Shown in pieces: positions 24,397-57,321 of a stretch of 64,000 nucleotides of DNA. The stretch comes from Phycisphaerales bacterium (GTDB lineage Bacteria; Planctomycetota; Phycisphaerae; Phycisphaerales; UBA1924). Location: contig JADLBU010000127.1 in assembly GCA_020847535.1 (NCBI GenBank), forward strand, positions 1 through 64,000, given 5' to 3'. The first letter of the stretch is position 1; the number at the start of each line of letters is the position of its first letter. Under the pieces are notes generated by a model. The model did not search any database. It saw nothing but the letters and a program-made list of their open reading frames with translations, and was not told the DNA's origin. Position numbers and translations under genes: made by a program.

Positions 24397-25176
24397 ATGC
24401 CCGCCCGTCCGGCAACCACCTCCACCCCCACCTCCACTCTCCACACCACCGACTGGCTCACCCTCGCCCCCACTCTCCCGCGCTACTCCATCGACTTCCT
24501 TTACGCCGACCCACCGTTCAACACAGGTAAAAGTCACTCCACTCCCCCCAACGCGACCAAAGCCGGCCGCAGCGCACAAGCCTCCTACTTCGATTCCTGG
24601 CCCACGACTGCCGACTACATCTCATGGCTCCGTGCTCGCCTGCTCGCCATCATCCCCGCGCTCAAGCCAACCGCCTCGATCGCGATCCACTGCGATCACC
24701 GCGCATCACATCACATCCGCCTGCTGCTGGATGAACTTCTCACACCCGACCACTTCATCAATCACCTGATCTGGCACTACGGCCTGGGCGGCTCCTCACC
24801 GCGCCGGTTCGCCCGCAAGCACGATGACATCCTCATCTATGGCATCGATCCGGCGAAGTACTACTTCAAAGCCCCGATGGTGCCGGCGACCAGCCAGCGG
24901 CTCAAGGGCAAGCTCAAGAAGGCGACCGATGTGCTGGACATCCCGGCGATCAACAACATGGCCAGGGAACGCACCGGCTATCCAACGCAGAAACCCATCG
25001 AGCTGCTCGAACTGCTGATAAGCGCCTTCTGCCCGCCCGGCGGCACGGTGCTGGATCCCTGCTGCGGCAGCGGTACAACGCTGCTCGCGGCCGCCAACCT
25101 GGGGCGAGCGGGGATCGGGTGCGATATCAGCCCGGCGGCGATCGGGATCGCGACCAAGCGGGTTCCGAAGTCATGA
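24397..25176 (+). CDS. DNA methyltransferase (DPPF-type, beta-class order)
   Basis: FLYADPPFNTGKS near N-terminus; C-terminal FCPPGGTVLDPCCGSGTTLLAAANLGRAGIGCDISPAAI. Confidence 0.88.
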   Translation: MPARPATTSTPTSTLHTTDWLTLAPTLPRYSIDFLYADPPFNTGKSHSTPPNATKAGRSAQASYFDSWPTTADYISWLRARLLAIIPALKPTASIAIHCDHRASHHIRLLLDELLTPDHFINHLIWHYGLGGSSPRRFARKHDDILIYGIDPAKYYFKAPMVPATSQRLKGKLKKATDVLDIPAINNMARERTGYPTQKPIELLELLISAFCPPGGTVLDPCCGSGTTLLAAANLGRAGIGCDISPAAIGIATKRVPKS

Positions 25177-25216
25177 GTGCTGGGTGCTGAGTGCTGCTGG
25201 GTGCTGGGGCGCGGAT
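25175..25216 (+). repeat. GTGCTGGGTGCTGA-type repeat
   Basis: gagtgctgggtgctgagtgctgctgggtgctggggcgcgg; related copy at 55849-55889. Confidence 0.7.
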
Positions 25217-51151: not shown

Positions 51152-51282
51152 TCCGAAAGAGATTCACCACGGGGGACACGGAAGGCCACGGAGGAGAGGA
51201 TACAGGATGGGGGGAGGGGATGCCGCAGAAATTGACGGGCAGGTGAGGCGATCGCCTTGGCTGGTCGCATCCACCGGCTGCG

Positions 51283-51311
51283 TTGACTTTAATGGGTAGG
51301 GGCTCTTCAAT
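51283..51311 (+). promoter_or_regulatory. Candidate sigma70-like promoter
   Basis: TTGACT - 17 nt - TTCAAT, upstream of a structured, terminator-bearing segment. Confidence 0.4.
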
Positions 51312-51317
51312 AGCCCC

Positions 51318-51491
51318 TGATGCATATGCCGGCTACCACATCCAAATCGGGCGTGTCCAAAGCGGTGAAACACCGCGGCGGTCGTGTTCCGGCGGAACTT
51401 GGGAGCAAACGGCGAGCATCGCGCTGAGAGACAGCGAGGTACACGCAGTTGCCTGAGGCCCAGCGGAACACCGTTGGGCCTTGTTGTTTTT
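51318..51491 (+). ncRNA. Candidate structured leader RNA/small RNA upstream of homocitrate synthase
   Basis: Closing helix GCGTGTCC(51351-51358)/GGtACACGC(51438-51446) enclosing three hairpins (51362-51376, 51386-51398, 51422-51436) then terminator. Confidence 0.5.
51457..51491 (+). terminator. Intrinsic terminator ahead of homocitrate synthase
   Basis: GGCCCAGCGG-AACA-CCGTTGGGCC (10 bp) then TTGTTGTTTTT. Confidence 0.9.
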
Positions 51492-51594
51492 GGGGAGATC
51501 AGTAGGCACTGGGCATCGGGCACTGGGCACTGGTGTCAAGGCAAAGGATCCAGGACTCAGGACATTCGGGCTCAGGACTCTTTTCAAGGTTCAC

Positions 51595-52776
51595 ATGGCA
51601 CCCATCGCACCAAGCACCCCCACTTCTCCGGTTCGGCCGTTCGCGATCATCGAATCGACGCTGCGGGAGGGGGAGCAGTTTGTCAACGCGTTCTTCACGA
51701 CGGCTCAGAAGATCAGGATCGCGACGCTGCTGGATGCGCTGGGGGTGGAGTATCTGGAGCTGACCAGCCCGCTGGCCTCGCCGCAGAGTGCTTCGGACCT
51801 CGAGACGATCGCCGGGCTGGGGCTGAAGGCCAAGATCCTGACGCACACGCGATGCCACCCGGAGGATGTAGCCGCAGCGCTGAAGCTGGGTGTGGATGGT
51901 GTGGATGTGGTGATCGGGACTTCGAGCCAGCTGCGGAAGTTCAGCCACGGGAAGTCGATCGATGAGATCATCGGGATCGCGCGGGATGTGCTGCCGATGA
52001 TCAAGGAGGCTGGGGTGGAGGTGCGGTTCAGCACGGAGGACAGCCTGCGATCGGAGCTGAGCGACCTTTTGCGGATCTATGAGGCTGTGGATGGGATCGG
52101 GGTGAACCGGGTAGGCATTGCCGACACGGTGGGGATCGGGAACCCGCGGCAGATCTATGAGCTGGTGTCGGCGGTACGGCGAACCGTCAAGTGCGACATC
52201 GAGTTCCACGGGCACAACGACACGGGCTGTGCGATCGCCAACGCGTTCGCGGCGTGGGAGGCGGGGGCGACCCATATCGACACGAGCGTGCTGGGGATCG
52301 GAGAGCGGAACGGGATCGCATCGCTGGGTGGGTTCATCGCGCGGATGTACGCGACCGATCCGGAGGGGGTGAAGAAGAAGTACAAGCTGCCTCTGCTGCA
52401 CGACATCGACCACATGGTCGCCGAGCTGGTGGACATCGATGTGCCGTTCAACAACTACATCACGGGGTTCTGCGCGTTCAGCCACAAGGCGGGGATCCAT
52501 GCGAAGGCGGTCTTGAATGATCCTTCGACGTACGAGGCGCTGCGGCCGGAGGACTTCGGGCTTACGCGATACATTCATATTGCGCACCGGCTGACGGGGT
52601 GGAACGCGGTGAAGCACCGTGCGGAGCAGCTGGGGTTGAGCTTCAGCGATGTGCAGGTGAAGACGATCACGGGGCGGATCAAGGCCCTGGCGGACCAGCA
52701 GGCGATGACGCTGGATCATGTGGATCAGTTGCTGCGCGAGGTGGCGGGGACGGCGGAGACTGTGGTGGTGGCGTAG
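51595..52776 (+). CDS. Homocitrate synthase, Lys20-like
   Basis: [132 protein letters not shown]. Confidence 0.9.
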
Positions 52777-55231: not shown

Positions 55232-57321
55232 GCGCTGGCGACCAGTCGGCGCTTGGTGACTTGCTCAGCACCGCCGGCGACCACGAGCTCCTGGGCGACC
55301 GGGCTGAGGGGCGGAAAGGGGAAGGAGATCGCGTGGCCGGACTCGGGGATGAGGCGGAGGGTGGAGGTCTGGTAGTCGATCTCGATCGTGCCGGCGAGGC
55401 GTGACTTGGTCTTGGCCGCAGGTTGGGGCGTGGGGCTGTTCGCACTGACTTGCCCCAAGGCGGGCAAGTCGGTGGCACGCAGATGCTCTACTAACGCGGG
55501 GCACTCGAAGACGACAAAGCCGTTGTTGAAGGCGTTGCGCTTGTAGGTTTCGCTGAAGCTGGCGGCGAGCACGCAGGGGATGCCGGCGTGCTTGAGGGCG
55601 GTGGCAGCCTGCTCACGGCTGGAGCCGGTGCCGAAGTTGAGCCCCCCCACTACCACATCGCCGGGCTGGAGCTTGGCTCGAAGGTCGGCATCGTAATTCT
55701 CGAAGATGACCAGGGCCATCTGCTCTGGGGTCATGCTGTCGTTGTAGGTGTGTTTGCCGGCGTAGATGCCATCGGTGTTGAGGTTGTCGCGATCGAGGAA
55801 CCAGAGGCGGCCGGAGACCTTGGCGGGGAAACCATCGATGACCGAACCGGTGCTGCGTGCTGAGTGCCGGGTGCTTGGGCGCGGGTGGATGGTGGTTGTG
55901 GGCTTTGTGTTGGTGAAGGCGGTTGGGGAGCAGATGTGGCCGGCGATCGCGCTGGCGGCGACCACGGCGGGGGAGCCGAGGTAGACGAGGCCGGCCTTGT
56001 CGCCCATGCGGCCTTCGAAGTTGCGGTTGGTGGCGCTGATGCCGACCTCGCCGGCCTTGATGGTGCCCTTGCCCAGGCCGATGCAGGTGCCGCAGCCGGG
56101 GGGAAGTTCGGTAGCGCCGGCTTCGAGGAGGGCCTGCCAGTCTCCGCGAGCAGTGGCGGCCTGCTGGACATCGGCGCTGGCGGCGGCGAGGTAGAACTCG
56201 ACCCCGGCGGCGATCTTCTTGCCGCGGACGATGCTCGCGGCGGCGGTGATGTCTTCGAGTCGGGCGTTGACACAGGACATCAGCCAGGCCTTGTTGATCT
56301 TGATGCGGCGGGATTCGATGTCGGGGAGGGCGGACATCGTCTTGACATCGTTGGGGCCGGAGACGTGGGGAACGATGGTCGCGAGATCAATGTCGAGCTC
56401 GATCGCGTAGCTTGCATCGGGATCGGGCTGGAACTCGGAGCGGGCGTTCCACCAGGTATCGACCTCGGCTCGCGTGTAGAAACCGAGGGATCCGGGGCGG
56501 CGGACTCCCGGGCGGCGAGCGGCGGCGAAGTAGTCAGCGCGGGCGTGGAGGTAATTGCGGAGGGTTTCATCGAAGGGGAAGACACCGGCGAGCGCACCCC
56601 ATTCGGTGGACATGTTGGCGATGCTCATGCGCTGGTCGATGGAGAGGGAGGCGATGGCATCTCCCCCACCGCTGGCGAACTCGACGGCGTGATTGAGGAC
56701 TTCATCTTTGTTGAACGCGCCGCAGAGGGCGATGATGACATCTTTGCCGACGACGCCGTGCTGGAGGCGGTTGCGGAGGTTGACGCGGGCGACCGGCGGG
56801 GCTTGCCACCATGTGATGCCGGTGGCCCAGATGCTCGCGGCATCGGTGCGGACGACAGGGGTGCCGAGGCAGCAGAGAGCGCCGTAGAGATTGGAGTGCG
56901 AATCGCTGCCGACGACCATCGAGCCGGGTGTGACGTAGCCCTGCTCGACCATGACCTGGTGGGAGATGCCGGTGCCGGCGGGGTAGAAGTCGATGCCGTT
57001 TTCGTTCGCGAACGATTCGATCTTGGCGTACTTGCCCAGGTTCTCGGGAGTGGTGTTCTGGATGTCGTGATCGATCGCGAAGACTGGTTGATGGGGGTTG
57101 TGGATCCTGGGGGTGAGGCCGGCGATCTTGAAGATCTCGCGGCACTTGGGCATGACCGCGCCGGTGTTGTCGTGGGTCATGATGTGCTTGGGGCGGATCA
57201 TGACGAAATCGCCGGAGCGGACAGGCTGGCCGGAGGGCAGGCCATCGGCGAAGCGGGTGGCGAGTTTTTCGATGAGGGTGAGGCCGGGCATGGTGTCTCC
57301 CGCGATGATCGGGATCATCAT
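55228..57321 (-). CDS. Homoaconitase (fused, Lys4-like); start 57321 or 57291
   Basis: SGDFVMIRPKHIMTHDNTGAVMPK, IDFYPAGTGISHQVMVEQGYVTPGSMVVGSDSHSNLYGALCCLGTPVVRTDAASIWATGITWWQ, PPGCGTCIGLGKG, GLNFGTGSSREQAATALKHAGI. Confidence 0.88.
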   Translation of the reverse strand: MMIPIIAGDTMPGLTLIEKLATRFADGLPSGQPVRSGDFVMIRPKHIMTHDNTGAVMPKCREIFKIAGLTPRIHNPHQPVFAIDHDIQNTTPENLGKYAKIESFANENGIDFYPAGTGISHQVMVEQGYVTPGSMVVGSDSHSNLYGALCCLGTPVVRTDAASIWATGITWWQAPPVARVNLRNRLQHGVVGKDVIIALCGAFNKDEVLNHAVEFASGGGDAIASLSIDQRMSIANMSTEWGALAGVFPFDETLRNYLHARADYFAAARRPGVRRPGSLGFYTRAEVDTWWNARSEFQPDPDASYAIELDIDLATIVPHVSGPNDVKTMSALPDIESRRIKINKAWLMSCVNARLEDITAAASIVRGKKIAAGVEFYLAAASADVQQAATARGDWQALLEAGATELPPGCGTCIGLGKGTIKAGEVGISATNRNFEGRMGDKAGLVYLGSPAVVAASAIAGHICSPTAFTNTKPTTTIHPRPSTRHSARSTGSVIDGFPAKVSGRLWFLDRDNLNTDGIYAGKHTYNDSMTPEQMALVIFENYDADLRAKLQPGDVVVGGLNFGTGSSREQAATALKHAGIPCVLAASFSETYKRNAFNNGFVVFECPALVEHLRATDLPALGQVSANSPTPQPAAKTKSRLAGTIEIDYQTSTLRLIPESGHAISFPFPPLSPVAQELVVAGGAEQVTKRRLVASA
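55849..55889. repeat. GTGCTG-type repeat inside homoaconitase linker
   Basis: ggtgctgcgtgctgagtgccgggtgcttgggcgcgggtgg, closely matches 25175-25216. Confidence 0.75.

Follow-up and report, generated by a model that had tools for sequence, protein, structure and literature searches.

What does an intrinsic terminator do directly upstream of a homocitrate synthase gene (hcs) in a Phycisphaerales genome, and what is the RNA that leads up to it? The locus lies in a 64,000-nt stretch (hereafter the window) of contig C127 of a 4.9-Mb genome (G000), whose closest matches are Phycisphaerales metagenome-assembled genomes (MAGs). An earlier note on this DNA had described a multi-branch RNA fold ending in the terminator, and had proposed either an attenuator- or riboswitch-like leader or a free-standing small RNA. 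The comparison reported here makes it highly probable that the region is a ribosome-mediated transcription attenuator for lysine biosynthesis, placed before hcs and predicted to sense lysyl-tRNA.

In classical amino-acid attenuators, a short open reading frame (ORF) and a terminator switch a pathway on when the amino acid is scarce. Lysine-responsive attenuation through a leader peptide was reportedly described for the hcs cluster of Thermus thermophilus by Tsubouchi and colleagues in the Journal of Biological Chemistry in 2005. A 2016 survey of leader genes covered planctomycetes solely through the stop-to-start distance (PMC4833913), and a literature search on leader peptides for lysine and on attenuators in planctomycetes, with subscription journals mostly outside its reach, returned nothing specific.

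Materials and methods

Heads of alpha-aminoadipate lysine units were picked by gene homology to three anchors (lysW, hcs or homoaconitase), irrespective of any leader. This gave 26 heads in 20 genomes of the family, headed by lysW (20), hcs (three: the window, G001 and G062) or homoaconitase (three: G053, G093 and G115). The leaders of G097 and G118 were placed by eye, as their tails had caused the automatic scan to pass over both. G001, the nearest relative, belongs to the same genus as the window genome and carries an hcs that is 94% identical. Folding was modelled for 22 leaders, comprising 21 of the family and that of L062, a different Planctomycetota MAG. In the energy-gap test, the best terminator-free fold was compared with the minimum free energy (MFE) fold after removal of the RNA up to the front edge of the ribosome.

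The hcs locus

The controlled gene, hcs (51595..52776, + strand), matches TIGR02146 with 469 bits (cut-off 413.55). A homoaconitase lies nearby (TIGR00139, 714.7 bits against a cut-off of 529.9), as does a homoisocitrate-dehydrogenase-like protein that scores below the equivalog cut-offs. Upstream of hcs on the same strand, the promoter-like hexamers TTGACT-17-TTCAAT (51283..51311, with TTGACT at 51283-51288 and TTCAAT at 51306-51311) are the same in G001; a stricter scanner called no sigma-70 promoter at this site. The intrinsic terminator (51457..51491) has a 10-bp stem (51457-51466/51471-51480), an AACA loop and a T-rich tail (51481-51491), all identical in G001, and a mechanical terminator scan of the region returned 2 terminator-like sites against 0.3 in shuffled sequences. 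Very probably, its role is to end transcription early, within the hcs leader.

Downstream of the terminator and ahead of the hcs start, imperfect heptad arrays of the GGCACTG, CAGGACT and GTGCTGA types were observed at 51505-51533 and 51551-51580. Further arrays lie at 25169-25197, 55850-55875 and L120:7782-7810, placed inside the homoaconitase ORF and elsewhere, and short repeats resembling them directly precede start codons in the relatives L005 and L010. These arrays recall the heptanucleotide repeats of cyanobacteria.

A short ORF within the supposed structured RNA

An ORF of 33 amino acids, MPATTSKSGVSKAVKHRGGRVPAELGSKRRASR (51326..51427, + strand, with a further in-frame ATG at 51320), was missed by the earlier note; it runs through the supposed structured RNA, of which it makes up the larger part, and ends 29 nt before the terminator. 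It places four Lys codons among its 33 residues ahead of a gene of lysine biosynthesis: three AAA codons at 51344, 51359 and 51368, forming a cluster (51344..51370), and a fourth Lys codon outside it at 51407, all of them spaced and none consecutive. At the same site G001 carries the homologous ORF MLSSLAKHASLKAAKPRGGRVPAERMSKR, which aligns without gaps from the ATG at 51326. The three clustered codons are identical in G001, and all four Lys codons are preserved in place and in frame (12/12 bases), against 16/36 bases kept in the non-Lys codons 2-16 (p = 5e-4). Codons 17-24 are nearly unchanged; the antiterminator strand described below lies within them.

The three local hairpins of the supposed structured RNA are present as the earlier note had drawn them, together with the hexamers and the terminator with its tail. 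The first (51362-51376) loses 2/6 pairs in G001, the second (GUUCC-GGC-GGAAC, 51386..51398) is partly kept there, and the third (CGCUG-AGAGA-CAGCG, 51422..51436), which overlaps the ORF's stop codon, is unchanged. The fold upstream of hcs is indeed compact, the 181-nt RNA reaching -77.2 kcal/mol against -65 (sd 4.1) for dinucleotide shuffles (z = -3.0). The multi-branch architecture fared less well: its enclosing helix of 8 bp (51351-51358/51438-51446) is a possible pairing that the predicted MFE fold does not contain, and 4/8 of its pairs are broken in G001, a comparison of two sequences that does not amount to a covariation test.

Such compactness, a terminator within a biosynthetic leader and the high conservation of the leader's downstream half in G001 would suit a metabolite-binding riboswitch, in which a multi-branch aptamer for lysine, 2-oxoadipate, homocitrate or another ligand acts directly on the terminator. 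We nevertheless consider this very improbable. The losses in G001 affect the enclosing helix and first hairpin of the putative aptamer. Rfam returned no family for 51250-51620 at gathering score or at E ≤ 10, the lysine riboswitch and T-box included. A DNA similarity search of 200 relatives gave a single good match, in the same-genus genome, and otherwise short matches near the threshold, which left no way to trace a conserved structured RNA by sequence; yet Lys-rich ORFs stand at all the operon heads, and an aptamer does not predict in-frame Lys codons. The attenuator half of the proposed attenuator- or riboswitch-like leader thus holds in a broad sense, given the terminator in the hcs leader, and the riboswitch-like half is not supported, given a fold that is not conserved in G001.

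Leaders of other lysine units

A Lys-rich leader ORF followed by a GC-rich terminator was found at 26/26 unit heads of the family. The window genome itself carries a second such leader before lysW (L120), encoding MANHAFQNGSLPGADASVVVFAKALKAGKAKGKLPGVSAVPLSA; other examples are MTLTSSKLGKSKQAKSLSAALSRG (lysW, G053), MPMRTASTTTLNGKAKAKGTKPSGDGRVRVR (lysW, G109) and MQILASKKGKSKRLKRPAIAFRA (before homoaconitase). Across genera, the peptides have little in common beyond spaced Lys residues. Occurrence outside the family is patchy: most of 15 lysW genomes of other families have no leader directly at lysW, G329 combines a strong terminator with a short ORF that includes two Lys codons, in G373 the ORF is Lys-rich and no terminator was found, and L062 has both a Lys-rich leader ORF and a terminator. 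When a crude background filter was applied (a Lys-rich ORF before a terminator-like hairpin), six others passed besides the lysine leaders, several of them resembling gene ends or repeats; this count being unclean, we relied on the per-operon and antiterminator tests.

Several related observations were made alongside. In G002, of the same genus, the L123 locus has a lysW with a Lys-rich leader, and hcs gave no match there at E ≤ 1e-60, which may mean that hcs has diverged or that the genome is incomplete. Lys-rich leader ORFs (KKxKK and KEKKPD types) with terminators also occur upstream of hcs in Chloroflexi and in one Blastocatellia genome (L018, L019, L020, L024, L030, L033, L034, L039, L042, L044, L050 and L059); in the seven of these leaders that were tested, the left arm of the terminator has an antiterminator partner (p 0.005-0.05 each). 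Two tandem units of Lys-rich ORF plus terminator precede hcs in L025, L026, L041, L046, L051 and L057 and, if real, would represent a double attenuator.

Alternative pairing of the terminator arm

Within the leader ORF, segment 2, GUGUUCCG (51384..51391, + strand), can pair with segment 3, CGGAACAC (51464..51471, + strand), which spans the top of the terminator left arm, the loop and the first base of the right arm. In 22/22 modelled leaders, the best duplex that the sequence following the last clustered Lys codon can form with the terminator left arm plus loop begins 0-15 nt beyond that codon. Across 10 clade representatives this duplex beats dinucleotide shuffles (Fisher p about 2e-7); the window duplex by itself is no stronger than its shuffles (p = 0.31). 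The hcs pairing is invariant. Among three same-genus lysW leaders, one C-G pair of the antiterminator is replaced by G-C through changes on both sides, a result that 168/500 shuffles also reach, and sliding the partner strand in these three sequences lowers the pairing from 95% to 21-52%.

The energy-gap test agrees with a switch operated by ribosome position. With the RNA behind the ribosome omitted from folding, the window gap was 0.9 kcal/mol for a ribosome positioned at a Lys codon (mean of the shuffles 8.3, 0/60 as small) and 13.6 kcal/mol for one at the stop codon, with the same direction in 22/22 leaders (combined p 4.5e-6). In the modelled Lys-stalled state, the left arm is sequestered upstream in the nascent RNA in all 22. 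At the level of clades, both the duplex and the gap statistics back an antiterminator that is incompatible with the terminator and becomes free on stalling. The equilibrium model nearly abolishes the terminator at some Lys codon in G008, G059, G097, L062 and the lysW leader of G053. In the Lys-stalled state of the window leader it still favours the terminator (P 0.71-0.99), so capture of the left arm must there be kinetic.

An independent small RNA some 170 nt long, transcribed from a promoter and to a terminator of its own and without a role in hcs control, would account for the promoter-like hexamers and the strong terminator, and an attenuated transcript would look identical to it in RNA-seq. 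This second proposal of the earlier note is scarcely credible, however, since it does not predict the in-frame Lys arrangement seen across 20 genomes ahead of lysW, hcs and homoaconitase; the Lys-rich ORF, terminator and antiterminator recur at every lysine unit of the family that was examined.

Codon choice and initiation of the leaders

Lys, the recurrent residue of the leaders, is encoded by AAA 83 times and by AAG 7 times. The three lysine enzymes of the window use 9 AAA against 63 AAG, and the hcs genes of six relatives 0-2 AAA against 5-14 AAG; within the window genome alone, the AAA:AAG ratio is 9:0 in the leaders versus 9:63 in the enzymes (p = 2e-7). Genes for tRNA-Lys with UUU and with CUU anticodons are both present in this genome. 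AAG predominates among the clustered Lys codons of seven leaders that come from Chloroflexi MAGs, isolates and a single Blastocatellia MAG; at 4/7 of these loci hcs has a clear preference for AAA. Leaders may thus use the less-used Lys codon of their genome and be tuned to one tRNA isoacceptor, here on near-leaderless ORFs, an idea that we put forward tentatively and as somewhat doubtful; the avoidance of A runs or of RNA structure could contribute to codon choice in this small sample.

The same codon preference bears on whether the leaders act as arrest peptides, detecting a metabolite inside the ribosome tunnel through the nascent chain rather than depending on slow Lys decoding. In favour of such arrest, G001 conserves the residues RGGRVPAE that follow the Lys cluster, and GDGRVRVR-type ends recur among the g24 leaders, but this reading is highly unlikely, as the conservation of RGGRVPAE is explained by the antiterminator strand that it encodes, the cross-genus peptides share so little, and the AAA-only choice points to codons instead of the residue.

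In 13/22 leaders a -10-like box ends 7-15 nt 5' of the ATG, which suggests that the leader ORFs are initiated in a leaderless or near-leaderless manner.

Discussion

As far as sequence allows them to be tested, the defining features of a leader-peptide attenuator are present at this locus, and they support the following model. Transcription would begin just 5' of the ATG, and ribosomes would make the leader peptide. When lysyl-tRNA is ample, the ribosome would reach the stop codon (51425-51427), the terminator would form and termination would fall about 100 nt short of hcs. When lysyl-tRNA is scarce, the ribosome would stall at the clustered AAA codons and expose segment 2, which would pair with segment 3 once this is transcribed; the left arm of the terminator would be caught before the right arm is made, and RNA polymerase would enter hcs. 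With about 34 nt between segment 2 and the stop codon downstream of it, a ribosome that has reached this codon would leave segment 2 uncovered. Segment 2 might instead be sequestered in its local hairpin (51386-51398), or the RNA might refold after release of the ribosome, as allowed by a P(terminator) of 1.00 for the naked window RNA.

Attenuation through a leader peptide is a known kind of regulation; for its predicted wide use in Phycisphaerales, the incomplete literature within reach of the search gave no earlier report. The closest likeness is with the T. thermophilus attenuator, which reportedly also precedes homocitrate synthase in the alpha-aminoadipate/LysW pathway and combines a leader peptide containing Lys codons with a premature terminator. 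The present system belongs to another phylum, stands in addition before separate units headed by lysW and by homoaconitase, and uses spaced AAA codons in a genome whose genes favour AAG. With the trp, his, leu, thr and ilv attenuators of Proteobacteria and Actinobacteria it shares a short ORF with control codons, an antiterminator overlapping the left arm of the terminator, and a terminator ahead of the first gene; it differs from them in the proposed sensing of lysine, the lack of a match to an Rfam leader family and the -10-like box so close to the ATG in many leaders. Lysine riboswitches and T-boxes likewise place a premature terminator in the leader of amino-acid genes, whereas here Rfam gives no match and the conserved element is a predicted translated ORF.

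A candidate new riboswitch thereby gives way to a testable leader-peptide model. The codon that genes avoid and leaders use offers a natural test of isoacceptor-specific sensing, and isoacceptor tuning, if true, would be a rule testable across phyla. For Phycisphaerales, in which little is known of gene regulation, the analysis proposes a concrete mechanism for the control of lysine synthesis through alpha-aminoadipate, and separate lysine units within one genome would share the same type of switch.
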